Assembly: GCF_000828085.3 (NCBI RefSeq)
Contig: NZ_JXCA02000031.1
Span: 127,858-191,857, forward strand
Source of the DNA: Scytonema tolypothrichoides VB-61278
Lineage (GTDB): Bacteria; Cyanobacteriota; Cyanobacteriia; Cyanobacteriales; Nostocaceae
Length of the DNA stretch: 64,000 bases
Reading direction: 5' to 3'
A program made the translations under genes and the position numbers. Positions 10,339 to 26,318 of this stretch are shown here, one piece after another; position 1 is the first letter of the stretch, and each line of letters opens with the position of its first letter. The notes below the pieces were generated by a model. The model was not told the origin of the DNA, did not search any database, and was given only the letters and a program-made list of their open reading frames with translations.

Positions 10339-13161
10339 CTATTTAGAAGTGAGTGGTCGAATAGGTGCAAAACCAGCTTGTTCTACAAGTTTTTGACCCT
10401 CAACGCTTAAGAGTAAGTTAGCATAAGCCGTACCAGCCTCCTCATTTACACCACCGTCTTTTTTGATAATCACATAGAGTTTGCGAGTCATTGGATAAGA
10501 AGAATCAATAAAAGCCAGTTGATTCACTTTCTCGATGTTTGTTCCACTGAAAGGAGCTACATAAGGTTTATTAGCACTCCTTGCTAGTGGGAGAACTTTT
10601 ACAGGTACAGTCTTTTGGTTAACAACTTCTGAAGCCGTGGCATAACCAATTCCACCAGCAGTGTCAGCAACTCTCTGTAAAGACTTAGTGGTGTTGTTTA
10701 CCTCTTTAAAAGAACCAAAGTCTCTTCCCAGTAACACCGTGTCTTGGAAGAAATCCACAGTACCGCCAGCTTCCGGGTTACGGCTGAAGACTGTAATCTT
10801 CAAATTAGGACCACCCACCTGCTGCCAATTTGTGATTTCTCCAGTAAAAATCTGTTGCACTTGTTCCAAAGTCAGACCTCTGATTGGAAGACTAAGGTTT
10901 ACATAAATGGCGATGCCATCAATTGCAACAGCCTTCTGTTCTAGTTCAAAGCCTTTTTTTGTAGCAGCTTGTAACTCATATGGTTTAAGAGTATCAGAAG
11001 ATTGGGCAAAGCTCAGTTCATCGTTCAAAAGCATTTCAATACCCGTTCGTGAACCAGGCTTTTTTTTAGGTGGATGAACATATTGTAAGTGAAATGAAGG
11101 GTGTGCTTTGTTAATGGCGTCAATAATATCTTGAGATCTCAGAGGAGCAAATGTTGTGGATCCGCCATAAAAAAATGTTCCAGAAGGGACATTTTTTACT
11201 TTAGCAAAAGTTGCTATGCAAGTATTAAAAAGTACCTCTTGAAGTGGACAACGACTGGCGCTTGATAACAAATCAATGCCCGTATAAATCCCCAAACTGA
11301 CGGCGATAATAATCCCAAATAAGATAATTAGCTTTAATCGTTGCCACTGCTTTTCAAACTTTAATTTTCCTAATTCATTGTCAGCCCAATTATGGTTAAA
11401 AATGGTTTCATAAATATGATTGCCAACTTCTAATTTTCCCTGGTAGTTGACTACAAAACCGAGTCTTAATAATATGAGTTGTTTGGGATTGTCATCAGCT
11501 ACTACCTTTCCTGATTGCAAAACCTGTCGATACAGTTGCAGTAAATTTTCGGCATCTTTATTCTGCACAAGCTCATCGCGTATTTTCCTCAAGTGTTCTG
11601 GTTGATCTTGACTTTCCCAGTTGTCGATGATGCGCTCACGCACCATCCGCTCTACCCAATCAGCTTCATCCTCTCCCTGGCAAATTGGAAATTGCTCATT
11701 GAGGATAAGTCGGAAAAGTTTTTGGGCAAGAACTGGTTCAGACTTCGTTATTCTAAGTACTTTTCTAATGATACGCATAGGATTGCTAACCTTCCTAAGC
11801 AATTCCTCTGTCCTAAGCAATTCCTCTGCTATGCCAATCGTTTGTCGATCTACTTCGGTCAAAGTCCCTCGTTTGTCTAACACTCGACTAGCAATTAAAA
11901 ACCGATGTTCATCAATACTGAATTTATTGTGTGGATCCAAACCTTTATCGACTAACCAATTCCATCCTTCCTCAAATGCCTGCCCGCGTAAGAGCCTTGA
12001 ATCATCTTGATACTGACTTTCTACCCAAGCACTCAAAGCCTCTGCATAGGGTCGAAGCTTTTCCAGTTCCTGGTTAAGCCATTTTTGGTTAAAAACTCTC
12101 TTATATATAGGGTTGTAAACTTTTAGTTTGCCATTATGCTTTACCACCAATCCTGATAGCCGCAATTCCATTTGTTCATAAGAGTGATCTGCATCTATTT
12201 CTTTGTGTCGCAAAATGGATTGGTATAGTCCTAGCATTTGCTGTGTTCGATGTTTATTAGTAAGAAGGCGATCGCGGATAGTCTTTAAATGTTCTGGCTG
12301 ATCCTGAGATTCCCAATTCTCAATAATTTTTGACCTTACCGCCTGCTCAACTGACAGGGGATTTTCGACTGTTGATCCCTCTGATATGAGCTGACACAGC
12401 TTTTGAGTTAAAAAAGGCTGTCCTTCTGTCCAGGACAAAATCTCTCTTAGCACTTCTTGGGGATCACTAACCTTACCCACTAGCCCCTTTTTTAAAGTCT
12501 GGGCTTCCTCAAACTTAAACCCATCTAAGGCAATTGCTTTGCCAATATTAAACGGGGTACGAGCTTTATCTCTAATTAAATCCGAAGGCGTTGCTACTCC
12601 TAGCAAACAAAATGTTAGCCTCTCGTACTCTGGTTGATCAACTCGCTGGTTGTAACAAGCCCGAATCAGCGCAAAAAAATCATCAATTGAGAAATCTAAG
12701 CTGATAATGCTGTCTATCTCATCGACAAAAATGACAATCCTTTTTCCTGGCACATGCACCAACAAGACTTCTTCAATGAATCGATCTAGGAGCTGAACTA
12801 AAGAAAGCTCTTGATGCTCCTGCAGCCAGTTTTTTTGATTCACCTTACCAAAGAGGTTAAATCCCCGCCACAAATCAGATACTATACCCCCGTACCAGTT
12901 CTCTGGAGTTAAGTGTTCGCTACCAATTCTGGTGATATCAATAGCCGCACAGCTAACGCCAGACTGCTTCAGTTCATGCATTGCCTGCACCCGCAAGCTA
13001 GATTTGCCCATCTGCCGACTCTTGAACACGTAGCAAAACTGCCCAACCATCAGGGCGTCATATAGTTGTTTGTCGGCTTGCCGCTTTACATAGCTAGGGG
13101 CATTTGGTTTTAAGCTGCCACCTACGTGGTAATCGAAGGTTAATTCTAAAGTTGAGTTCAT
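10339..13161 (-). CDS. AAA-like NTPase with a membrane segment and a PstS-like binding domain
   Basis: From ATG 13161 (ribosome-binding site GGAGGG just before) the protein has about 940 residues. Residues 10-300 are an AAA-like (AAA_35) NTPase with the P-loop FKSRQMGKSSLR and Walker B RIVIFVDEID. A winged-helix region with NWESQDQPEHL follows at about 285. That region is repeated imperfectly at about 518, so the middle contains an internal duplication. One membrane helix spans about 615-635. The last 280 residues resemble the phosphate-binding protein PstS: GGSTTFAPL, LSFAQSSDTL, FTGEITNWQQVGG and SRNPEAGGT. The domain order suggests a ligand sensor outside the membrane coupled to a cytosolic NTPase. 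The start overlaps the upstream CHAT-partner remnant by ATGA. Confidence 0.75.
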   Translation of the reverse strand: MNSTLELTFDYHVGGSLKPNAPSYVKRQADKQLYDALMVGQFCYVFKSRQMGKSSLRVQAMHELKQSGVSCAAIDITRIGSEHLTPENWYGGIVSDLWRGFNLFGKVNQKNWLQEHQELSLVQLLDRFIEEVLLVHVPGKRIVIFVDEIDSIISLDFSIDDFFALIRACYNQRVDQPEYERLTFCLLGVATPSDLIRDKARTPFNIGKAIALDGFKFEEAQTLKKGLVGKVSDPQEVLREILSWTEGQPFLTQKLCQLISEGSTVENPLSVEQAVRSKIIENWESQDQPEHLKTIRDRLLTNKHRTQQMLGLYQSILRHKEIDADHSYEQMELRLSGLVVKHNGKLKVYNPIYKRVFNQKWLNQELEKLRPYAEALSAWVESQYQDDSRLLRGQAFEEGWNWLVDKGLDPHNKFSIDEHRFLIASRVLDKRGTLTEVDRQTIGIAEELLRTEELLRKVSNPMRIIRKVLRITKSEPVLAQKLFRLILNEQFPICQGEDEADWVERMVRERIIDNWESQDQPEHLRKIRDELVQNKDAENLLQLYRQVLQSGKVVADDNPKQLILLRLGFVVNYQGKLEVGNHIYETIFNHNWADNELGKLKFEKQWQRLKLIILFGIIIAVSLGIYTGIDLLSSASRCPLQEVLFNTCIATFAKVKNVPSGTFFYGGSTTFAPLRSQDIIDAINKAHPSFHLQYVHPPKKKPGSRTGIEMLLNDELSFAQSSDTLKPYELQAATKKGFELEQKAVAIDGIAIYVNLSLPIRGLTLEQVQQIFTGEITNWQQVGGPNLKITVFSRNPEAGGTVDFFQDTVLLGRDFGSFKEVNNTTKSLQRVADTAGGIGYATASEVVNQKTVPVKVLPLARSANKPYVAPFSGTNIEKVNQLAFIDSSYPMTRKLYVIIKKDGGVNEEAGTAYANLLLSVEGQKLVEQAGFAPIRPLTSK

Positions 13162-13661
13162 TTTCCCTCCAAGCAAGATGAAAAATAACTGTGATAAAGT
13201 TGACAGCTAAAGTTGACTTGATTTGCCTCAAACTGCACAATGCCCATGCTCTCTAACTTGTAAGCTGGTATTTGCTGTATTTGTGTTCTCCCTCCTGCAT
13301 GAAGCAAAGTTCTCAGGGCTTCGAGTAATTCGGAGTGTCCACTTAACATGATCCAAAGTCCTTGCAGATGGCTACTATAAATTCCTTCTAAAGTGGGAGC
13401 AGTTTGCAAAAGTTCCTCTAAAGTCACATCTTTCTGGTGCAGGTGATAAAGACCTAGTTGAATTAAGTAAGGATGTCCACCCACCATTACTCGCAGTCGT
13501 TCTAGTTCTGCGTTAGGTAAGCACTGCAATCCATACTCTTTTGCCAACTGCTGTACTTGTCCCAAAGTCAAATTTGGTAATTTAACGGGTATACCCACAT
13601 TGAACGGCGATTGATTGATATTAAGCGGGATATATAGTTCTGTTGAGTAAGCCACCACCAA
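13158..13661 (-). pseudogene. Truncated CHAT/NTPase partner, C-terminal part only
   Basis: The 167 residues match the last third of the protein at 18593-20200: S-P-F-N-V-G, the GGHPYL motif, LEELLTLAP/LEELLQTAP, EGIFSHHL/EGIYSSHL, and the end YFSACLE/YFSSCLE. The frame is open only to a stop at about 13688, and no CHAT or P-loop part is present upstream. The gene therefore appears to have lost its first two thirds. Its stop overlaps the start of the following NTPase gene, so translation may still be coupled. It may be a relic or a minimal adaptor. Confidence 0.7.
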
Positions 13662-14298
13662 TCTCAGTTTTTGGCTAGTAAATTAGTAGAAGTTTAAGAA
13701 CTTATAGCAACAGACATATCGTTTAGGACATCGTGTTTTGATTAAGAGGGAAGAGGGAACGCTTAACAGGGAACAGGGAACAGGGAAATGTCCTAACAAT
13801 TGTGGCGACTGCTATAAATACAATCTTTAAGTTCGGAATTGGGAACTTTATCTAACCGAGTTTTTCTTCACTTGATGAGTAAAATTCTATGAATTTTTCA
13901 GGCGATTGCGCGGAGCGCAGACGCCAAGGGCGTATGGCTTTCTTTCAGTAACGGCCAAACTGTAGCGTTATATTCATGGTGACTATATTTATAGACTGTA
14001 AAAGTCCCATGACTGTACGGCGACAAATTTTACCTACATTTTAAGCAAAAAAAAACTATTGGAAATCTTTGTGAGTAATTTTGCACAAAGTTTAAATCAA
14101 ATACTACTTGTGCGTATATAACAGCGGTACTTATGCGCTTATTTGCCCTTCAGTTATGTTGAATCTGGATGGTTTTGTCACTCAGCAACTCTCAGACGGC
14201 GAGAAATGTGATTTTTAGTGCCTAAACAGGCTACTCTCCAAAATTCAAGGTTAAATCTGAGATAAGAGCTTATATCCTAGTTTTTCAAGGAAATGGTC
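13662..14298. other. Spacer with an STRR tract
   Basis: No gene is seen. AACAGGG heptamers lie at 13765-13787, and a short GGAGCGCAGACGCC-type repeat lies near 13915. The rest is AT-rich and probably contains the promoter of the next gene. Confidence 0.5.
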
Positions 14299-14607
14299 AT
14301 GAACAAACTATTTAAAATTAACAGAAATCCAGAGGCTTTCAACAGGAACATTGCAACACAATGGTACAAAGAACGCTCCAGGCAAGCGAGTACAAGTTTT
14401 AATCTAGCTGTCGTTTTAGCAACAGCGACCGTCATCTTTGGTATCGCAACTGCTGTTTCAGTTTGCAGAAATAATGTATCAGTTGCAGCAGCAACAACAG
14501 CTGTAGGGCTTACCTCTGGAGCTGCTAGTAGACGCTTGTTTAAGTTATATGATGATACAAACAAAAAACTGGATGATGTTGCCAAGGAGCTATTGGATGA
14601 ACAGTAA
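14299..14607 (+). CDS. Small two-span membrane protein, TRADD-N-associated type
   Basis: The protein has 102 residues from ATG 14299, which suits the AAGGA at 14287 better than the ATG at 14293. It has the segment WYKERSRQASTSFNLA, two hydrophobic spans (about residues 35-55 and 62-80), and a tail FKLYDDTNKKLDDVAKELLDE. This matches the two-transmembrane domain described in cyanobacteria beside TRADD-N-like domains, part of predicted immune or cell-death signalling modules. The annotated TRADD-N partner is not adjacent, but CHAT and caspase genes lie on both sides. The role is inferred from the family only. Confidence 0.65.
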   Translation: MNKLFKINRNPEAFNRNIATQWYKERSRQASTSFNLAVVLATATVIFGIATAVSVCRNNVSVAAATTAVGLTSGAASRRLFKLYDDTNKKLDDVAKELLDEQ

Positions 14608-14789
14608 ATATCCTCAACACTATAACGATTGTAGATTTCTGAACCTTAAATTGTCTACTTTGTTCACCCAAATGGGTGAAACAGTTTCACCCACTTGGAT
14701 CGCCTAAGTGCGTGAGGTTAAATTTTGTTAAAAAAGGGATTCTAGTACTAGAAAGCATTGATTGTATTCAACTCTAGTAAAAGAAACCT

Positions 14790-15326
14790 ATGAAATTTGC
14801 AAAATTATTAGCTTCTACAATTGCTGTTGCTTCTGTTGTTCTTTCTGCAGGTATTGCTTCAGCTCAAAACGTTCCAACTCAAGAAGCTGCAACACGTGGT
14901 ATGAACGGTAGTTACGTTGGTGCTGGTGTTTCTGCTGGCGTCACCAATGGCGGACGACAAAATGATGCGGCTACATTAGGTGGAAATGTTCAAGGACGGT
15001 ACGCCGTTCCGAATGCGCCTGTTTCTGTTCGTGGTTCTGTTTTGTTTGGTGGTGACTCAACAGCAATTATACCGACACTAACATACGATGCGCCCATCGC
15101 GAAAAACACTAACGTTTACATCGGTGGTGGTTACGCTTTTCAAACTGATGAAGGTTATGCAAGCCAATTAGGAAATAAGAATGCCCCTGTATTAACCCTT
15201 GGTGCGGAAACACAAGTTGCGAAAAACACCGTTCTTTATGGTGATGCCAAGTGGGGTATTGACGCTTACAAGGGTAGTGATTCTGACGCTGTCAGCTTAC
15301 AAGCTGGGGTTGGTTACCGCTTCTAG
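14790..15326 (+). CDS. Outer-membrane beta-barrel-like protein
   Basis: The 178-residue protein has a clear signal peptide ending GIASAQN (residues 1-26). Alternating hydrophobic strands follow, such as GSYVGAGVSAGV, VSVRGSVLFGG, NVYIGGGYAF and TVLYGDAKWGID, and the protein ends GVGYRF with a terminal aromatic residue. That end is the usual recognition feature for outer-membrane insertion. About eight strands fit a small monomeric barrel of the OmpA/porin-like kind. No precise family is assigned. A strong hairpin lies 50 bases after the stop. Confidence 0.65.
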   Translation: MKFAKLLASTIAVASVVLSAGIASAQNVPTQEAATRGMNGSYVGAGVSAGVTNGGRQNDAATLGGNVQGRYAVPNAPVSVRGSVLFGGDSTAIIPTLTYDAPIAKNTNVYIGGGYAFQTDEGYASQLGNKNAPVLTLGAETQVAKNTVLYGDAKWGIDAYKGSDSDAVSLQAGVGYRF

Positions 15327-15376
15327 TCCTTCATAGTTAATAAAGAAGGATTTTGATGCGAAATCACCACATGTAT

Positions 15377-15423
15377 AGGAGTAGTGAAGCTTTTCCTCTA
15401 ATTTTAGGAGCTTCACTGCTCCT
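15377..15423 (+). terminator. Terminator-like hairpin after the barrel gene
   Basis: AGGAGTAGTGAAGCT pairs with AGCTTCACTGCTCCT with one mismatch around a 17-base loop. A T-rich stretch follows at about 15430. Confidence 0.6.
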
Positions 15424-15535
15424 TCGCTATTTTTGTAGCAATGAACATAATAACCAAGTTGAGTCTATAGCGGTTCTCGGTTGGGTGCAGTACATTTTTA
15501 ACCTCTCTCCAAACCTCTCTGCTATAAGATTTTGC

Positions 15536-15610
15536 GTAGGTTGGGTTGAGGAACGAAACCCAACATTCTCGCGGCTTTGTTGGGTTTCGCTATCGCTCTA
15601 CCCAACCTAC
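15536..15610. repeat. Inverted repeat GTAGGTTGGG
   Basis: GTAGGTTGGGT at the left and ACCCAACCTAC at the right bound a 75-bp palindrome with inner copies of CCCAACA/TGTTGGG. The same core recurs at about 40436-40510 inside a larger element. It overlaps an open frame that is not credible before about 15614. Confidence 0.7.
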
Positions 15611-15613
15611 AAT

Positions 15614-15913
15614 TATCTTCAATGGCATCCTGCTTTTTTACAACTCGGGAGGACATTATCAGAATGTGCTGCCAAATATCGACAGTTCTGCCAAAAATAT
15701 CGACCGCAGGCGAAACCTGAAAAACGAAACTACTGGGGCAGTAGCTTTTTACCGTCACTATTGAAAAGTAAGAGTAAAGTAAAAAAATCTCCGGGACAGA
15801 TGAGTTTACCTTGGGACAAGCAAAGAGTCACAGAATGTACGGAGGTACATGAGGTTGCAGAAAAATTTATTCAAGCCAACTGCTATCTTCCCCCAGTGCC
15901 AGGTATCAGATAG
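15614..15913 (+). pseudogene. C-terminal fragment of a REP-associated-type (RAYT) transposase
   Basis: The open frame after the palindrome reads HPAFLQLGRTLSECAAKYRQF, then RPQAKPEKRNYWGSSFLPSLL and EVHEVAEKFIQANCYLP. The HP...LG-(K/R)-T...Y-R-x-F pattern is typical of the C-terminal part of RAYT/TnpA-REP transposases. The N-terminal HUH catalytic part is absent and the palindrome occupies its place. The association of a RAYT-like fragment with a palindromic repeat is suggestive, but family assignment is tentative. Confidence 0.4.
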
Positions 15914-15991
15914 GTGGAATGCTGATTTTATCGTGGAAAGGGGCGTAGAAATAAATCTTTACAAAATTCGGAAACGCTTATATGTTACAGT

Positions 15992-18589
15992 TTACAAGTC
16001 GCAACGCGAGAAAAGTAGTGGTCCTAGCTTGCCCCTCTCTTCTCTTCTGTCTTTCAAAAACTCACTTTCATCTTCTAATAATCCCACTCCTTCCTCCACA
16101 AAAACACTCCCTAACCACCCTGGTCGGGTACCACTTTCCGCTCCCTTCACAACATTCCCAAACAAGTCCCTGCTATCAAATCCCCGAACCGAACCAAAAA
16201 ATACAGGGTACGATCCGATAAGATCTGGGTTCTTTCTTATAAGCTCATTAAGAACAGAGTAAGTTTTCACATCATTATACCATCCAACTGCCTTGGCAAA
16301 CTGAATAGAACTGTTCCCAGTCATTTTCCATATTTTCTTTTGTACACTAAAGCCAAAACGTTTGTCTGAATTGGTGACCCAAAGCTGGTCTATTGTTTGC
16401 AGGTCTGGACAAGAAAAACTATTAATGCTGTCATAATCGAAATGTGTTTCTTCTTCTCTTTGAGCAATATAGAGCATGAACTTATATGTTAGCTTGTCAG
16501 CTGCTTCCCAATTTTTATTTTTCAGTAGATTATCAAGTTCAGCGTAATAATAGTTTTTTAAAGATTCTCTAACCTTACTCAACAAGTCATTGTTTTGAAG
16601 GTATGGATCTTTAGTGAGCAAATCAATTAATCCAAAGTGTACTGATTTTATAGTGTTGAAAGTGATAATCTTAGTTTTTGAATTAATTGGGTTAGGTTGG
16701 CTTTTCTTTAATTCAAGTAAGTCCAAAACTTCTTGGTAAGCTTTTATTGCTGATTGAGTTTGATTTGTTTTTCTGAGTAGATTGCCTTGTACTATCTTGG
16801 CGAATATATTTATCTGCTTGAATTCACTGTTTGATTCTCTCTTCTCTCTTTTCTCATTATTGTAATCCCATCCCTTTAAAAAAATCATACTTTGTTTGAT
16901 GGATTCTTCTGCTAATTTCCAATCACCAAGATATTGATAAGCTAAAGATTTAGAAGCATGGAGGTAAACCTGTTCAAGTTGAGAGTCTTTGATTTTTACG
17001 ATGTTGATTTCAGGTTCTTTGCTTAAATCCTTATCTAAACGTGATATTTTTTCCTTCAATTCTATTAGCTGTTTGGGATCGGCAAAATTTGTGTATATTT
17101 CTTGAAGTTTATTTTGCGCTTCTTTAACTTCCTTTGCAGCCATTGTCACTGAAATTACTGCTCCCAATACAATCAAAATTAAAACAAAAGTTCCATTGCG
17201 AATTTGCTTTTTAGCCTGCTGATTCGCCTCACTTAATACCAAATTCCTTTTTTCTACTGCTTCCCTATCTTTTCTCTCTTGTTCCAATGCAGCTTCTTTT
17301 CCTAATGCAGTTATTTCTTCTTTTCGTTCCTTTGCTTGACTAGCTGCTAAAAACTCTCTATCTTGATAGTTCAGATTTTTATGTCTTGACCATTCCAAAG
17401 CATGCTGTAATGCTTTTCCCCGCAACAGGCGCGATTTATCTTTACCCCCAGAAGCCACCCAAAACCTAAAACTTTCGGAGTAAGGACGCAGATTTTTTAA
17501 TTGGTTTTCAATCCAGTTGGCGTCAAAAATCTCTTGATAAATGGGATTGTAAACTCTTAACTTGTTGTGCTGCCTAACAACTAATCCTGAAAGTTGTAAC
17601 TCACTTTGCTCAAAAGTATCATCTGCAGTTATCTCAGATTCTTCTTCCGCCAGCCGTACTTGTTGATACAGTTCCAGCAAATACCCTGCCCGTTGTTCAT
17701 CCCGCAAAATTCTAGCTCGAATAGTTCGTAAATGCTCTGGTTCATCTTGAGATTCCCAATTTTCAATGATACGAGATTTCACGACCTGTTCAACAGAACG
17801 AGGATCGTCTTGAAGAGACTCCTCCACCATAAACTGACACAGCTTTTGCGTCAGAAACGGTTGTCCTCCCGTCCAGTATAAAATCTCTTTCATGACTGCT
17901 TGAGGGTGACTAAATTTCCCCTGCAAACCTTTTTCTAACGGTTCAACTTCATGCAATCGAAACCCAGTCAAAGAGATAACTTGACCAATATTAAACGGGG
18001 TGCGTTGTTTATCTTCAATTAAATTGCTGGGTGATGCGACTCCCAACAAACAAAAGCTGAGGCGATTATATTCGGGATTATCAGGACGCAGATTGTGACA
18101 AGCACGGATAAAGGCAAAGAAATCATCTGTAGGAAACTTGAGACTGAGAACACTATCAATTTCATCAATAAAAATAACGATGTTTTCTTTAATTTCTGCA
18201 AGTAACTTCTTTTCTAAAAAATTCCCAAATCGTAACAAAGATGAGTTTAACTGATTTTGGGACCACCACTCCTTGAAATCGACATCCAAGTCAAAGCTAT
18301 CAATCAGCTTAACAATCAAATCTGCATACCAATTTTCTTGTGTAGCACTCTGAATACTGACAGAGGATAAATCAATGGACGCACACTCTACGCCAGCTTC
18401 TGAAAGTCGGCTCATTGTTCTCACCCGCAAGCTTGATTTCCCGCTTTGCCTAGAATTCAGCACATAACAAAACTTTCCTTTTAGAAGTGCGTCAAACAAT
18501 TCGTTATCAGCTTCTCTTGTCACATATGTGCTGGCGTTTCCGGGTAAGCTACCAGAAAAGATATATTCGTTAATATATTCCTCAACCAT
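15992..18589 (-). CDS. AAA-like NTPase with a membrane segment and helical C-terminal domain
   Basis: The 865-residue protein shares the first 430 residues with the protein at 10339-13161. It has G-S-L-P-G...Y-V-T-R-E-A-D, the P-loop NSRQSGKSSLR (about 50), Walker B NIVIFIDEIDS (about 140), and the winged-helix motif ENWESQDEPEHLRTIR (about 290). A charged coiled coil leads to one membrane helix (about 456-476). The C-terminal 390 residues are largely helical with TPR-like pieces (LAYQYLGDWKLAEESIKQSM), and no named domain is recognised. The gene starts 3 bases after the CHAT-NTPase gene, so the two form an operon. The P-loop lacks the usual first glycine, a feature of the whole group. Confidence 0.75.
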   Translation of the reverse strand: MVEEYINEYIFSGSLPGNASTYVTREADNELFDALLKGKFCYVLNSRQSGKSSLRVRTMSRLSEAGVECASIDLSSVSIQSATQENWYADLIVKLIDSFDLDVDFKEWWSQNQLNSSLLRFGNFLEKKLLAEIKENIVIFIDEIDSVLSLKFPTDDFFAFIRACHNLRPDNPEYNRLSFCLLGVASPSNLIEDKQRTPFNIGQVISLTGFRLHEVEPLEKGLQGKFSHPQAVMKEILYWTGGQPFLTQKLCQFMVEESLQDDPRSVEQVVKSRIIENWESQDEPEHLRTIRARILRDEQRAGYLLELYQQVRLAEEESEITADDTFEQSELQLSGLVVRQHNKLRVYNPIYQEIFDANWIENQLKNLRPYSESFRFWVASGGKDKSRLLRGKALQHALEWSRHKNLNYQDREFLAASQAKERKEEITALGKEAALEQERKDREAVEKRNLVLSEANQQAKKQIRNGTFVLILIVLGAVISVTMAAKEVKEAQNKLQEIYTNFADPKQLIELKEKISRLDKDLSKEPEINIVKIKDSQLEQVYLHASKSLAYQYLGDWKLAEESIKQSMIFLKGWDYNNEKREKRESNSEFKQINIFAKIVQGNLLRKTNQTQSAIKAYQEVLDLLELKKSQPNPINSKTKIITFNTIKSVHFGLIDLLTKDPYLQNNDLLSKVRESLKNYYYAELDNLLKNKNWEAADKLTYKFMLYIAQREEETHFDYDSINSFSCPDLQTIDQLWVTNSDKRFGFSVQKKIWKMTGNSSIQFAKAVGWYNDVKTYSVLNELIRKNPDLIGSYPVFFGSVRGFDSRDLFGNVVKGAESGTRPGWLGSVFVEEGVGLLEDESEFLKDRREERGKLGPLLFSRCDL

Positions 18590-18592
18590 ATC

Positions 18593-20200
18593 TTACTCCA
18601 AACATGCCGAGAAGTATTGACGGTATAAGTCACAGCTAGGAACACAAGCATTGCGAATAATTTTGATTAACCCCAGACTATGCAGTTTGAACATAATTTC
18701 GGGATTAAATTGAACAGATTCAAGAGCAATTACTACTTCTTTATATGCTGACTCTAACTGAGAATCATCTTGCAAACACCTCAGTTGTTCTCGTAAATGA
18801 TGGCTAAAGATTCCCTCTTCTGTGGGTGCGAGTGTCAATAGTTCCTCTAAGGATATTTCCTGGTTTTTAAGATTGGCGAATGCTTCTTGCATGAGATAGG
18901 GATGTCCGCCTAGCAACGTCATCAGTTTAATTATGCCTTGTTCTGCCAACTGAATATCTACTTCATACAACTGAGCCATTTTTTCTATCTGAGAAAGGTT
19001 AAACTCAGGTAACTCAATCGCTAATCCAACATTAAACGGTGAGCGATTAGTGTCCAGGGTTGGATAAACTTCTGTAGAATTAACCACGACTAACCTCAGT
19101 TTCTTCCAAATTTTCCCCATCCTGTCACCCTGTTTAGCAGTTTCGTACCAACTGCGGAGGAGTAAGCAGAATTCAGAAAAAATATTTTCGCATTGAAACA
19201 GTCGCTCAAAATTATCTATAGTAAAAACCAGAGATGTATCAACGTTTGGTAATAAATACTTTTGAAAATAACGAGTACAGCTAGTATTGATTCCCAGTTC
19301 ATCTTGCCAGTACTCATTCAATTTTGGCTCTAGTTCTAAAATATCCGAGATATTAATACATAACCACTGTAAAAAAGTTTTTAAATTAGTGAGAACAGAA
19401 CTATCAGCAAGCTTCAAATCTAACTTCGCTGTTTTGTAACCCTTGTCTCGGGCATAGTCAAGCAATTTCTCACTCAACTTGGTCTTGCCCATCCTCTGAG
19501 GAGCTTTAATCCGAATCAGCGCTCCTGGTTGTACAATTGCTTTATAACATTTCTCCTCTATGGGTGGTCGTTCAATATATATGCTTGTGTCTTGTTCTGT
19601 AGAAGAATTAGTAGAAGAATTATCAATCCAAGAAAGTTTGTTTTTAAAAACTGGTATTTGTCCTTGTGAAACATCTTCCATTTGAATAGCAACCAATCCT
19701 TCCTCAAAAGCTCTTTTAATAACATCTTGACTCTCTGGATTTTCGTACCCTAGTCCATCATAAAAGCCAATAGCAAATACAATAGCAGCTTTGTCACCAA
19801 TCGGCTGATTCATGCCAATAGTATAATTAATGTGTTGGCTAATTGCTTGAGCGGATTTTTCGGAATAACAAGCATTTAGTAATACACACTGAACAGAATT
19901 GGCGTGTAGCTTAAATAATGCTGCTAATCCCGTTGGTGATACGGGTTTATGGTTTCCGCCATCGTCTTCTAACACCAAACTACCATCTTCCATCCCATGT
20001 CCACAAAAATGGACAATTTGAGGATGTTCTTCTGCTATGGCACGACGAATATCTATTGGACGTACAGCAGTTCTAATTTTTATTTCAAACAAATCCCGTT
20101 TTACTGCGCGTCTAATAGCTTCTTCTATTTTGCGAATTTCTTTATCAAAACGTAATCCATCAGGGATTGCTGCTAGGATTAATACTTTATTATTAGACAT
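18593..20200 (-). CDS. CHAT protease domain fused to an AAA-like NTPase
   Basis: Residues 1-175 are a caspase-like CHAT domain with its expected dyad, His68 in VHFCGHGM and Cys111 in LLNACYS. After a linker comes a P-loop NTPase with APQRMGKTKL (about 233-242) and a Walker B-like LVFTIDNFERLF (about 330-342). A winged-helix part with GGHPYL and YFSACLE ends the protein. CHAT domains are activated by associated NTPases to cleave specific targets in bacterial defence and cell-death systems. The neighbour downstream, 3 bases away, is the likely partner. A truncated paralogue with its own partner lies at 13158-13661. Confidence 0.8.
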   Translation of the reverse strand: MSNNKVLILAAIPDGLRFDKEIRKIEEAIRRAVKRDLFEIKIRTAVRPIDIRRAIAEEHPQIVHFCGHGMEDGSLVLEDDGGNHKPVSPTGLAALFKLHANSVQCVLLNACYSEKSAQAISQHINYTIGMNQPIGDKAAIVFAIGFYDGLGYENPESQDVIKRAFEEGLVAIQMEDVSQGQIPVFKNKLSWIDNSSTNSSTEQDTSIYIERPPIEEKCYKAIVQPGALIRIKAPQRMGKTKLSEKLLDYARDKGYKTAKLDLKLADSSVLTNLKTFLQWLCINISDILELEPKLNEYWQDELGINTSCTRYFQKYLLPNVDTSLVFTIDNFERLFQCENIFSEFCLLLRSWYETAKQGDRMGKIWKKLRLVVVNSTEVYPTLDTNRSPFNVGLAIELPEFNLSQIEKMAQLYEVDIQLAEQGIIKLMTLLGGHPYLMQEAFANLKNQEISLEELLTLAPTEEGIFSHHLREQLRCLQDDSQLESAYKEVVIALESVQFNPEIMFKLHSLGLIKIIRNACVPSCDLYRQYFSACLE

Positions 20201-21416: not shown

Positions 21417-21833
21417 ATGACTATGCTGCAAAATCCTACCATCCGCACCCCTGTTGCAATCAGTCTTGGCGCAATTGCTGGAGCACTATCGCGTTATTAC
21501 CTCGGTTTATGGTTCAATCAGCTTTTTGGTACAGGATTTCCCTACGGTACACTGATTATTAACATCAGTGGTTGTTTTGTTATGGGTTTCTTTACCACGT
21601 TGTTAATAGGACTATTGAGAGCGATTTCTCTTGATGCCCGACTGCTAGTCACCACTGGCTTTTTAGGCTCTTATACCACGTTTTCAACTTATGAATTAGA
21701 TACAGCTAAGTTGCTTCAACAAGGTAACTTAGAAATTGGTTTGTTCTACTGGTTCAGCAGTGCGGTATTAGGAATGGTATGCTTTCAGTTAGGGATTATC
21801 TGCGCTAATTTTTTCACAATTATAAAGGAATGA
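21417..21833 (+). CDS. crcB: Fluoride channel CrcB/Fluc, first copy
   Basis: The 138-residue protein has four membrane helices and the family motifs [31 protein letters not shown] and [17 protein letters not shown]. Fluc proteins form dual-topology dimers that let fluoride out of the cell. The second copy at 21905 is convergent, with only 71 bases between the stops. The two could form a heterodimer with fixed opposite topologies. No fluoride riboswitch was recognised upstream. Confidence 0.9.
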
Positions 21834-21904: not shown

Positions 21905-22306
21905 TTATATCACTCTTGCTAACAAGATTCCCAGTTCTATACTAACAAATCCTAATAACGGGCTACCAAACCAATAAAGTAATGCAGTTTGATAACCTTT
22001 CGTTTGTAACAAATTTGAGGTGTCTAGGGCATATGTAGAAAAAGTGGTGTAAGAACCTAAAAATCCCACTGCAACTAATAATTGCACAACCTGAGAAATC
22101 CCAAACTTGGATGTGAGGGTAATAAAAAAACCCATCACAAAAGCCCCTGTTATATTGATAAAGAAGGTTCCATAAGGAAATGTTGTCCCAAAGCGAGACG
22201 CAAAAAATAAAGTAAGGTAATAGCGACTTAGGGCACCTGGAATTGCTCCTAAGCTAATGGCAAGAAGAGTAGAAATAGCAGAATTCATAGAAGTGACTAA
22301 TATCAT
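21905..22306 (-). CDS. crcB: Fluoride channel CrcB/Fluc, second copy
   Basis: The 133-residue protein is a clear paralogue of the first, with [30 protein letters not shown] and [17 protein letters not shown]. Four helices are predicted from the hydrophobicity. The start may be the ATG at 22306 or, six codons later, at 22288. Paired crcB genes are common where each subunit has one orientation in the membrane. Confidence 0.9.
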
Positions 22307-23429: not shown

Positions 23430-26168
23430 CTACTTCTGCAGTGGTAAACCCAGCTTGGCACGAAACTCATCATCGTAGTACGCCTCCTCCCAATTTTTGG
23501 CAGATTTAACTTGCTCAGGAGTCAGATTTTTAGCACCGATGAGGTTGGCACTGCTGAGGTTGGCACTGCTGAGGTTGGCAACGGCGAGGTCGGCATCGCT
23601 GAGGATGGCATAGATGAGGTAGGCACCGGTGAGGTTGGCAGTCCTGAGGTTGGTACCGTTGAGGTTGGCAAGGGTGAGGATGGCACTGTTGAGGTTGGCA
23701 CCGGTGAGGTTGGCAGTGCTGAGGTTGGCAGTGCTGAGGTCGGCATTGCTGAGGTTGGCAGTGCTGAGGTTGGCAGTGCTGAGGTCGGCACCGCTGAGGT
23801 TGACACCGCTAAGGTTGGCATCGATGAGGTTGATATTGGTAAGGGAGACACCAAGGTTAACCAGTTCTTGAAGTGCCAAGATTCTTGCCTGACTGTTCTC
23901 CTTTCCTTCAGTAGCATCAATGGTTGCCCGAAGTTGGCTTATCTTTATCTCTCTTGCAATCACAACTCCCAGGTAAATAGTTAAACTCAGGGGAATAATC
24001 AAACCTAGTCCAACAAACTTAATTCGATTATTCCGTTTATGTCTCAAACTTTGGTCAATCAAATCCTGAGTCAAATCCGATAGCGTCAAGTTTCCAACTT
24101 GCTCCTGCTGAAACGCCCTTGCTTCTTGCAATGGTTTTCCCTGGAGTAAATAATCCTTCGCCTTTTTCCTCTCTTCCCACTCAACAGCCGCCGTCTCAAT
24201 TTTGCGTTTTTGTCTGAGTTTGTCTCGGTTCTCATCGAGCCATTTTCGTAATAGCGACCAATGGCGAATCAGTGCTTCATGGGCAACATCCACCACCGCA
24301 ACCTTACCGGAGTTCGCCCCTTTCTCAATTAAGGTGCTGGTGACAACTAACTTGGCATCTGCTAACTTTTGAATCACCTGCTCGACTAAAGCTGGCGCTC
24401 GCTGCGATGTGACTAAATCTCGTTGTAAAACCCGCCTGCGAGTATCTTCTGTTCCTTCTCCTAGCTGTGTCAGTTCCAGAAAAATCTGCTTTGCTGTCAC
24501 TTGCTCCTCAGTTGATAAAGACTCATAAACCTGATTAGCACGTTTTTGCAGCGTTCCCTTCACTCCACCAAGCCGCGTATATGTGGAGAGCGTTAATTTT
24601 TCGTCTTCTCGCTGTTGACAAATTTCTGTGAGTGTGTATTGCAATAACGGCAAGCTTCCCGGTGAACCTTCTACATCGGCAATAATTTGGTTAACGAGTT
24701 CTGGCTCAACTTGCAAATTTACCTGTTTTGCAGGTTCGACAATTGCCTGTCTCAACTCTTCTGAGTTCATGGGCGTAACTGTCACCAGATTTTGCTGAAT
24801 CTGCTGTGCCAGTCCGCTATACTCTTGCTCGGCACACTTGCCAAAAAAATCCGCCCGCATCGTCAGCACCAAACAGAGTTTATCGCCGCCTGTCTTCTCC
24901 AAAGCACCCAATAGGCACTCAAAAAACTGCTGTCGTTCAGTGATGTCTTTGCACAGAGTAAAAGCTTCCTCAAATTGATCGACTACCAGCAACACCCGCT
25001 TGGTGTCCGCAGTGTCAATCAAATATCTTAACCCCTCAGCTTTCTTGGCAATCAATTCCTCTGCTTTTGCTAACTGGGATGCCCGGTCAATACCTGATAA
25101 CTCCGAATCCACAAACGCAAGTGCTAAACTTTGGAGGGGATGCTCACCTGGTTGAAAAATCTTGATTTGCCAAGTCTCACTACCTGACAACCGCCGCCCC
25201 AGCTTCAGCTGATAAAGTAATCCTGCCCTAACGACACTTGACTTGCCACTCCCAGATGCTCCCAGCACCGCTAGAAAATTCCCTGCTCGCACTTGTTCTA
25301 TGAGTTGGTCTGTCAGCGCTTGTCTACCGTAAAAATACTGAGCATCTTCTGGAGTGCAGTCAAAGTATTGCAACCCCCGATAAGGACAAATGCTCGTGAC
25401 AACTGAATGACTAGACTCAATATCTGGCGCTTTCCAAGTGCGAGTCAGGTTAATTGCACCACCAGAATTAGCAAACAAGGGACGCTGGGGGAATGCTTGT
25501 AAACGTTGATTGAGAACATCAATAAGAGTGTAATTTGTCACCCATGTGCTGGAATTGCGTTTGGGGTCAAGTGCTTGCAGTAAAGCGTCTGTCAGCACAC
25601 TATGATTGCTACTAATCGCCTCATAAGCAACCTCGAATTCTCTTGAAGCAGCAATAAAACACCTATCTCTTCCTTTCCCCCTATCCCCCGGATCGGCTTC
25701 AGCAAAATTCAGCAACTCACCACTGTAACAGCAATCCAACCAGATAATCTGCTGTTTGATTGGACTTTCTTGCAGTAGTTCGCGCAGCCATTTCAAGCGA
25801 ATTCCCCAGTTTCCCAAATCAGGATTGACATCGCTGGTAGCGAGAAAGCCTTCCTGAATTCCTTTATTTTTACGCAATCCATGACCAGAAAAATACAGCA
25901 GCGCAGTATCTGGAATATTTTTGCCTTCTGGCTTAAACAGTTGGACGATCGCTTCTTCTAGTTGAGTTAATGTAACTTGAGTTTTCTGACCAACGCGAAT
26001 TGTGTTATTCTGCTTATCCTTGACACCGGGTAGGCGCTTAACGTTAAATTCGCCGTAGTCTTGTAAAAGAGTGGCGATAGCTTCCGCATCCTGTGCAGGT
26101 GCTGTCAAAGCAGTTAAACGCTCATAACTATAGGTATTAATTCCAACTACCAAAGCGTCTCGGCTCAT
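23430..26168 (-). CDS. Orthocaspase-STAND NTPase-pentapeptide repeat protein
   Basis: From ATG 26168 the protein has 912 residues. Residues 1-240 are a caspase-like peptidase (C14) with His96 in YFSGHGL and the Cys pair in LDCCYSGE, Cys147 being the likely nucleophile. A STAND-type NTPase follows, with Walker A GASGSGKSSVVRAG (about 303) and Walker B VLLVVDQFEEAF (about 398). A membrane helix is at about 735-757. The end is about 20 pentapeptide units such as ANLSG and ADLST. The design fits a self-guarding switch in which ligand sensing by the STAND part releases the protease. It is divergent from the Trypco1-like gene. Confidence 0.88.
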   Translation of the reverse strand: MSRDALVVGINTYSYERLTALTAPAQDAEAIATLLQDYGEFNVKRLPGVKDKQNNTIRVGQKTQVTLTQLEEAIVQLFKPEGKNIPDTALLYFSGHGLRKNKGIQEGFLATSDVNPDLGNWGIRLKWLRELLQESPIKQQIIWLDCCYSGELLNFAEADPGDRGKGRDRCFIAASREFEVAYEAISSNHSVLTDALLQALDPKRNSSTWVTNYTLIDVLNQRLQAFPQRPLFANSGGAINLTRTWKAPDIESSHSVVTSICPYRGLQYFDCTPEDAQYFYGRQALTDQLIEQVRAGNFLAVLGASGSGKSSVVRAGLLYQLKLGRRLSGSETWQIKIFQPGEHPLQSLALAFVDSELSGIDRASQLAKAEELIAKKAEGLRYLIDTADTKRVLLVVDQFEEAFTLCKDITERQQFFECLLGALEKTGGDKLCLVLTMRADFFGKCAEQEYSGLAQQIQQNLVTVTPMNSEELRQAIVEPAKQVNLQVEPELVNQIIADVEGSPGSLPLLQYTLTEICQQREDEKLTLSTYTRLGGVKGTLQKRANQVYESLSTEEQVTAKQIFLELTQLGEGTEDTRRRVLQRDLVTSQRAPALVEQVIQKLADAKLVVTSTLIEKGANSGKVAVVDVAHEALIRHWSLLRKWLDENRDKLRQKRKIETAAVEWEERKKAKDYLLQGKPLQEARAFQQEQVGNLTLSDLTQDLIDQSLRHKRNNRIKFVGLGLIIPLSLTIYLGVVIAREIKISQLRATIDATEGKENSQARILALQELVNLGVSLTNINLIDANLSGVNLSGADLSTANLSTANLSNADLSTANLSTANLTGANLNSAILTLANLNGTNLRTANLTGAYLIYAILSDADLAVANLSSANLSSANLIGAKNLTPEQVKSAKNWEEAYYDDEFRAKLGLPLQK

Positions 26169-26318
26169 AAAAGACAGCTTCACTCCAGTTTTGCAGAGTT
26201 ATTACTTAACAGATACAACATCCTCGCCAAGATTTCCGGTTTTGTAAAACTTCATTAAGTATAAATACAGTAGTCCCATGATAATTTTTTAATTGCTTTT
26301 CAATTAACAATTCCTACT

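Follow-up and report, generated by a model that had tools for sequence, protein, structure and literature searches.

The 64-kb window analysed here, a stretch of contig NZ_JXCA02000031.1 of the cyanobacterium Scytonema tolypothrichoides VB-61278, carries on its minus strand two cassettes of two genes each, in which both proteins contain an NTPase domain of the Pfam family AAA_35. Cassette 1 is composed of the genes A1 (18593-20200, 535 aa) and B1 (15992-18589, 865 aa), which are separated by 3 bases. Cassette 2 is composed of A2 (13158-13661, 167 aa) and B2 (10339-13161, 940 aa), which overlap by 4 bases. Loci and genomes used for comparison are designated by the letters L and G, respectively, followed by a number. 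The four open reading frames (ORFs) and their spacing had been correctly described in an initial annotation made from the sequence alone, which proposed that a cassette made of a CHAT-NTPase and a membrane NTPase occurs twice, with different C-terminal modules.

A1 is a predicted executor. Its CHAT module (aa 1-190, positions 19631-20200; Pfam E-value 2.1e-6) precedes a type-A AAA_35 core (aa 199-531, positions 18608-19606; 1.8e-124) in which a Walker A motif is present and the Walker B motif reads DN, not DE. The dyad His68/Cys111, pointed out by the initial annotation, is present. The best match in the PDB, by sequence (E = 5e-12) as well as by fold (2.3e-11), was the SAVED-CHAT protein 8tl0, and the caspase-like fold together with the dyad makes the module a putative protease. 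Both motifs were found by regular expression in 25 of 30 type-A proteins labelled as CHAT. The AlphaFold model of A1 reached a pLDDT of 88.9 and a pTM of 0.65. B1, the predicted membrane sensor, starts with a type-B AAA_35 core (aa 12-356, positions 17522-18556) with intact Walker A and B motifs. It continues with a single hydrophobic segment, predicted by hydropathy to be transmembrane (approximately aa 467-485, positions 17135-17191), followed by a weakly matching TPR region and then by a GUN4 domain (aa 678-784, positions 16238-16558). The latter scored 100.8 bits in Pfam for a curated cut-off of 29.2 (E = 9.6e-29) and matched PDB entries 1z3x and 7e2r by sequence. The TPR-like nature of the B1 end had been noticed at first; the GUN4 domain had been overlooked.

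In B2, a type-B core (aa 15-358, positions 12088-13119) is combined with a single hydrophobic segment and a PstS-like solute-binding domain (aa 661-920, positions 10402-11181). The post-ATPase part of this core is repeated at 11359-11808, where hmmsearch reported a second domain (model positions 217-371). The solute-binding domain passed the Pfam cut-off of PBP_like_2 (1.5e-34) and matched PDB 4pqj; the PstS models of NCBIfam remained below theirs (TIGR02136, E = 8.9e-41, 140 bits for a cut-off of 206.6; TIGR00975, 31.7 bits for 205). As judged from these matches the sensor end of B2 has a PstS-like fold. The cores of B1 and B2 are 52% identical, and their C-terminal ends match unrelated Pfam families and are not homologous to each other, in agreement with the shared N-termini and distinct ends initially described. 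PADLOC gave no full-length match to a defence model for A1, B1, A2 or B2. The partial matches were chat (5.3e-14) and SAVED_CHAT (4e-4) across the CHAT part of A1, PD-T4-6 (1.6e-30) across the GUN4 end of B1, and PbeC (0.016) in B2.

The gene A2 is truncated and retains the C-terminal half of AAA_35 alone (profile positions 171-330). Intact orthologues of 445-461 aa were found in two congeneric genomes (L183 and L184, 461 aa) and in Tolypothrix campylonemoides (L094), with the same arrangement. Their N-termini resemble a GerE/LuxR-type helix-turn-helix (HTH), with scores of 29.5, 21.0 and 17.3 bits for L183, L184 and L094, respectively, the cut-off of 23.5 being passed by L183 alone, and no CHAT match was found in any of the three. 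Among the A genes then compared, the nearest to A2 was that of T. campylonemoides (91% identity over 57 aa), which sits upstream of a PstS-like B gene. A tblastn search of the window from 13501 to 15000 with A1 and 125 full type-A proteins revealed no CHAT remnant upstream of A2 among the 20 best matches listed, which corresponded to AAA_35 parts ending at positions 13673-13679. The proposal that cassette 2 is a second, partly decayed CHAT cassette holds as regards the decay of A2, and is ruled out as regards CHAT by the three intact orthologues: by sequence, cassette 2 is of the HTH type. At the junction of the deletion, approximately 110 bp (13705-13814) were not seen in the matching stretches of L183 and L184. 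In genome G061 (L214) the two cassettes adjoin as they do in the window.

The cassettes belong to a larger set. In the 7.9-Mb genome of the strain, 22 AAA_35 matches were detected, of which four weak ones were set aside; by our classing the others were seven full type-A genes, three type-A fragments and eight type-B genes, so that the count of two applies to the window only. In this genome, type-A proteins (380-510 bits) carry AAA_35 behind a variable N-terminal module, and type-B proteins (99-133 bits) carry it ahead of a variable C-terminal module. By this classing, AAA_35 splits into two sister types, A with an effector followed by the NTPase, and B with the NTPase followed usually by a transmembrane segment and then by a variable sensor. 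In 113 of 125 full type-A proteins, no more than 15 residues follow the A domain, and nine had tails of at least 175 residues.

The N-terminal modules of these 125 proteins, labelled with local profiles, were CHAT (30, four of them with TIR), TIR (20), kinase (4), patatin (1), HTH-like (34) and unlabelled (41). Patatin is also known as an effector of conflict systems. The HTH-like label is crude, as the local profile was seeded by L027, whose N-terminus has no Pfam match; equally crude is the HTH-XRE label, given by a regular expression only to 22 of the 41 unlabelled proteins. Pfam applied to 60 N-termini from an eight-genome census (described below) gave CHAT (17), TIR_2 (6), Trypsin_2 (2), one kinase and one patatin, along with a small number of HTH matches. 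Among 144 full type-B proteins, the C-terminal modules were mainly WD40 (63), GUN4 (26) and CHASE2 (8), while 22 were unlabelled and seven too short. Less frequent were TPR (3), TPR-CHAT (3), multiple transmembrane segments (3), PstS-like solute-binding (2), Peripla_BP_6 (2) and GAF (2); a trypsin, a hydrolase and an HsdR-like motor of type I restriction (L045) occurred once each. About 20 sensor ends lacking a WD40, GUN4 or CHASE2 label were scanned singly, and the 22 unlabelled ones are mostly outside that scan. Effector and sensor modules were variously combined: among the modules of the B partners of CHAT-bearing A proteins were GUN4 (10), WD40 (8), HsdR (1) and Peripla_BP_6 (1). The variable membrane-distal end proposed by the initial annotation is usually predicted to lie outside the cytoplasm, as described below, and the effector end varies as well.

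Several unusual architectures were encountered. A single ORF at L045:3349-8412, downstream of a CHAT-AAA_35 gene, is composed of a type-B AAA_35, a second AAA_35 and the HsdR-like motor (ResIII, EcoEI_R_C). L116:4180-15021 and L175 have the same gene order: an A gene whose N-terminal module is short comes first, a gene for an RPE65-like carotenoid oxygenase is next, and the last encodes a giant protein with a type-B AAA_35 at its end; the giant protein of L116 (2065 aa) reads kinase-AAA_16-GAF-PAS-AAA_35 and that of L175 has 2073 aa. Tandem copies of the post-ATPase half of the B core alone were found at L035:4405-7122, on contig C5 of the strain itself, and at G083:C327:6527-7906, the L035 protein carrying in addition a transmembrane segment and TPR repeats.

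The association of the two types was evaluated in two ways. A scan seeded with an alignment of B proteins, with one genome per species, provided the best 80 loci, which were cyanobacterial by title. Among the 70 with at least 3 kb of upstream sequence, 57 possessed an A gene upstream on the same strand, within 1 kb in 50 cases; four showed a divergent A gene and nine none upstream, two of the latter having an A gene downstream. The gap was 20 bp or less in 34 of 82 extracted A-B pairs. A less biased census was made in eight genomes (that of the strain and seven with few contigs). Of its 65 full type-A genes, 24 lay less than 600 bp upstream of a B domain, 39 had a B within 3 kb in any orientation, and 13 had none within 15 kb. 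When extracted genes were considered with a limit of 1.2 kb, 29 of 63 A genes and 29 of 62 B genes were paired. Pairing depended on the module: 17 of 21 enzyme-bearing A genes were paired versus seven of 34 HTH-labelled ones (Fisher p = 1.6e-5). Of the 17 CHAT-bearing A genes, 14, that of the window included, had a B gene no more than 1.2 kb downstream. The association between CHAT-NTPase and membrane-NTPase genes claimed at the start is in this respect real and passes the check proposed there, but it is not specific to CHAT, the constant unit being the pair of sister AAA_35 domains.

The two types differ in their switch motifs. The GK of Walker A is present in all 144 B and in 124 of 125 A proteins. 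The DE of Walker B is present in 143 of 144 B proteins and in 65 of 125 A proteins, the remaining 60, A1 among them, having another sequence. The DN variant was found in 21 of 82 paired and two of 43 unpaired A proteins (p = 0.003). The loss of Walker B was set aside as a rule of pairing, the DN excess possibly stemming from one lineage. With a P-loop, a Walker B motif and an ORC/Cdc6-STAND fold in the models, AAA_35 appears to be a STAND/NLR-like NTPase. Foldseek matched the A1 model with 8tl0, 2qen, RPP1, CED-4 and Avs3, and the B1 model with 2fna, the STAND protein 6mfv and ORC2, archaeal STAND-like ATPases being among the B1 matches, and with GUN4 at an E-value of approximately 0.002. By sequence, the alignment of B proteins gave no convincing match to solved chains (one at E = 0.93).

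A hydrophobic segment follows the core in 117 of 144 B proteins and is found within the N-terminal module of two of 125 A proteins. By a simple scan, a transmembrane segment was seen in all four solute-binding, 25 of 26 GUN4 and five of eight CHASE2 sensors, and in none of the three HsdR and GAF proteins. For the 111 B proteins with a segment within 300 residues after the core, lysine and arginine were more numerous on the core side in 96, fewer in five and equal in ten; in B2 the ratio was 5 to 1. Because the positive charge lies mostly on the core side, the sensor end is predicted to be outside the cytoplasm. Taken together, the distribution of transmembrane segments and the charge bias lead to the prediction of B as a membrane sensor and A as a cytoplasmic executor.

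The distances between A cores and between B cores were correlated over the 82 pairs (r = 0.834, the best of 999 permutations giving 0.176), and also in the 59 within-genome comparisons (r = 0.87). In the CHAT and GUN4 subsets the correlation between cores was 0.90-0.96, and that between a core and its own module was 0.02-0.51. The core-module values were significant in 27 CHAT pairs (0.31) and 21 GUN4 pairs (0.51), and not significant in 11 CHAT plus GUN4 pairs (0.09 between A core and CHAT, 0.02 between B core and GUN4). Since the cores are adjacent in the DNA, their correlation demonstrates that the block is constant and is no more than compatible with contact; for the same reason, module distances were dropped as an internal control for contact. 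The single-ORF fusions B-CHAT-A (L152, with an incomplete A domain) and B-A (L173 and L139) are stronger hints of A-B contact than co-divergence.

The outer ends are exchanged around this block. Compared with two congeneric orthologues sharing its flanks, A1 is 91-94% identical in CHAT and 94% in the core, and the first 360 residues of B1 are 95-97% identical with a synonymous divergence (dS) of 0.13-0.19. From approximately residues 360-380 dS jumps, and in the windows covering residues 360-680 (linker, transmembrane segment and TPR) it ranges from 0.84 to saturation against both orthologues. In the GUN4 core (680-780) it is 0.39-0.45, with 63-64% identity, and in the last stretch again 0.84 or saturated. 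In DNA (blastn), identity is 91-93% between 20250 and 17146, is then interrupted, and returns at 16015 (89-91%), continuing into the flank downstream. Approximately 1.1 kb of sensor DNA (16016-17145) is thus largely replaced; inside it, some 260-300 bases around GUN4 align, chiefly at 79-83%. Both orthologues have retained a GUN4 domain, so that the sensor half of B1 was exchanged for a different version within one class. The two orthologues compared with each other break later, dS being 0.28 at residues 360-420, 0.76-0.90 at 420-620 and 0.24 in GUN4. A change of class was seen among L037, L038, L039 and L047, whose A genes are 85-90% and B cores 79-92% identical: the sensor is CHASE2 in L047 and GUN4 in the other three, with a C-terminal identity of 16-19%. 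B2 is a mosaic in both directions, since dS in the core and in the solute-binding domain is respectively 0.34 and 0.05 against G080, 0.25 and 0.61 against T. campylonemoides, and 0.17 and 0.37 against G061. On the effector side, the CHAT module of A1 recurs in its own genome on three proteins whose C-termini differ: over 181 aa it shares 92% identity with L216, and it is 71% identical to L217 and L218, the latter with an FGE-sulfatase domain. The nearest full-length A1 paralogue in this genome is 63% identical. The view of the initial annotation that a constant NTPase core with an exchanged distal module belongs to a diversifying system is supported by these comparisons. On the whole, its observation was confirmed in part and its interpretation received partial support.

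Among 292 cyanobacterial genomes sampled, 83 gave strong matches to B (E-value at most 1e-60), as did 45 of the 116 genera, with at most six candidates scored per genome. Forty-one plasmid records matched, and of the 40 listed, 36 were cyanobacterial; the others were two from Chlorohelix (Chloroflexota), one from Abditibacteriota, in which a TIR-bearing A gene overlaps a B gene with PAS/GAF, and a distant Sphingobium match. A phage home for the system was rejected, no B match being found among 50,697 phage records.

We consider it rather probable that each cassette encodes a split two-protein receptor of the NLR/STAND kind, with B as the membrane sensor, A as the executor, constant cores and exchangeable ends. 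In this model, B has an intact cytoplasmic AAA_35 switch, in most cases followed by a transmembrane helix, and its variable sensor (GUN4, PstS-like, CHASE2, WD40, TPR) is mostly predicted to be outside. The cytoplasmic A has an effector (CHAT or TIR, sometimes a kinase, a phospholipase or an HTH-like module) ahead of an AAA_35 switch of its own, often with a degenerate Walker B. We infer that a ligand on B would cause B to bind or exchange ATP, and that B would then co-assemble with A via the paired cores, so that the effector would be clustered and switched on. The A1 effector would be a CHAT cysteine protease of the SAVED-CHAT type, and the outcome would probably be growth arrest or death of the threatened cell. 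The order of the operon is [effector]-[core A][core B]-[sensor]; with the cores back to back, recombination could replace either outer end and leave the matched centre intact. The domain layout, the association of the genes, the invariant core, the exchanged ends and the Walker asymmetry are observed here, whereas topology is a prediction, and the assembly of A with B, the ligands and the outcome are inferred.

The history of the individual cassettes allows other readings. The divergence of the B1 sensor could be the product of fast point mutation under selection, as might be suggested by the moderate dS and identity of its GUN4 core; the leap of dS after residue 360 in the linker, transmembrane and TPR windows, and the return of approximately 90% identical DNA at the gene end, make this very unlikely compared with recombinational replacement. 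Cassette 2 might be a dead remnant. Its A gene has lost by deletion the HTH and the P-loop part, with most of the N-terminal two thirds, and the whole cassette is missing from the syntenic stretch of G011 (L215). B2 is however a full-length open frame in the window and in three relatives, so that it may still act with an A protein supplied from elsewhere, and we regard the remnant as possible, if somewhat doubtful.

Two further alternatives concern the system as a whole. The pair could be an ordinary environmental signalling relay, in which B would respond to phosphate, tetrapyrrole or other signals and A would tune the physiology of the cell by limited proteolysis or transcription. Many sensor modules are indeed standard environmental ones (PstS-like, CHASE2, GAF/PAS, GUN4), many A proteins have HTH-like N-termini, and B is absent from the phage records. 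Such a relay seems rather unlikely, as the enzyme-bearing A proteins use CHAT, TIR and kinase modules, which published work (PMC10907252 among it) lists among the effectors of conflict systems, and as a fixed metabolic sensor would not need the replacement of sensor halves between orthologues. It could also be that A and B are neighbours merely by co-inheritance or co-transcription, each being alone a homo-oligomeric STAND protein, an explanation which we hold to be unlikely. It agrees with the many census genes lacking a partner and with the expectation that adjacent DNA blocks co-diverge without contact. Against it, pairing follows the effector type, most A proteins end at the NTPase and would be without a sensor of their own, and three fusions place both cores on one ORF. 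The split receptor must itself be weighed against several observations. More than half of the census genes (34 A genes of 63, 33 B genes of 62) had no partner within 1.2 kb. With short flanks and a visible A gene included, 62 of 75 B-selected loci were paired, and four of these 62 have a partial A only; this selection biases the rate upward, since the loci are those scoring best against an alignment with B1 at its head, and they are not independent (three Moorena loci, for example, have B cores 97-98% identical). The co-divergence of the cores may reflect mere DNA neighbourhood between recombination points. The B1 model is weak (pLDDT 73, pTM 0.46), the NLR matches of the A1 fold are modest (query TM-scores of approximately 0.31-0.44, several with a large root-mean-square deviation), and other AAA+ proteins also match it. 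Finally, a predicted transmembrane segment is absent in 27 of 144 B proteins, the charge rule gives a tie for B1 itself, and an extracytoplasmic location would be unusual for GUN4.

Plant NLRs, CED-4/Apaf-1, bacterial Avs and bNACHT share the logic of effector, STAND NTPase and sensor, the three parts being usually on one chain. The AAA_35 models match the NTPase folds of these receptors. The split receptor proposed here would differ by having effector and sensor on two chains, as in cassette 1 (apart from the few fusions), each with a sister NTPase, the sensor chain usually with a transmembrane segment. Plant sensor-helper paired NLRs and NAIP/NLRC4 resemble the A-B pair in being made of two NTPase proteins, one of which senses and the other executes; A and B differ in that their genes adjoin in tandem, the effector and the sensor being placed outermost, and we claim no membership by sequence. 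The articles PMC7159879 and PMC8195603 (Kaur et al. 2020 and 2021) describe related two-gene and ternary conflict systems, the occurrence of GUN4 in these, and solute-binding or CHASE2 ends. The EACC1 and EACC2 systems described there are likewise two-gene and membrane-linked, with a constant component and a highly variable C-terminal end including a solute-binding domain (EACC1) or CHASE2 (EACC2), but their constant parts are EACC and caspase domains and not two AAA_35 NTPases. No NCBIfam or Pfam match linked to EACC1 was found in A1, B1, A2 or B2, the presence of an EACC1 model in these libraries being unconfirmed. The term AAA_35 occurs in neither main text, where the domain might figure under another name.

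The SAVED-CHAT protease of type III CRISPR (8tl0) has the closest solved CHAT domain to that of A1. It differs in its switch, which, according to the part of PMC11417357 that mentions SAVED-CHAT, is a SAVED domain answering cyclic oligoadenylates and not an AAA_35 NTPase. STAND or MoxR systems linked to diversity-generating retroelements appear in portions of PMC10907252 and PMC12691664. In the STAND antigen sensors of the former (PMC10907252), the sensor ends of STAND and CHAT conflict proteins of multicellular bacteria are likewise diversified, but their diversity originates from the retroelement and that of A-B appears to come from whole-segment replacement. In the open-access literature, to which the search was confined (subscription papers and preprints being outside its scope), no description of the A-B pair was found, and nothing under PF14516. 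From its domain composition, the pair would be a variant of STAND conflict systems for which we found no earlier description there.

Two features of the neighbourhood may be mentioned. A protein with caspase, nSTAND1 and pentapeptide-repeat domains (Pfam) is encoded on the minus strand at 23430-26183, approximately 3.2 kb upstream of A1, and is a possible protease partner or target of the A1 CHAT. Between them, two small convergent genes (21417-21833 on the plus strand and 21905-22306 on the minus strand) encode membrane proteins which we take to resemble CrcB/Fluc fluoride channels.

In filamentous cyanobacteria, A has the looks of a killing or signalling enzyme and B those of a membrane sensor. 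That Cyanobacteria and at least one Abditibacteriota bacterium possess a membrane-spanning two-chain NLR, in which recombination at both operon ends swaps receptors and effectors and generates strain-specific repertoires, is in our opinion a proposition for and against which the balance is even. The usual view of bacterial NLR-like proteins is that of single chains. If true, the split system would be a bacterial counterpart of paired NLRs, sensing across the membrane, and the arrangement of exchangeable ends around a constant centre hints at an easy way for a bacterium to retool its receptors. A tandem A-B pair is annotated in Leptolyngbya boryana dg5 as APT55_RS31515 and APT55_RS31520, and its presence in such named strains makes the idea testable.

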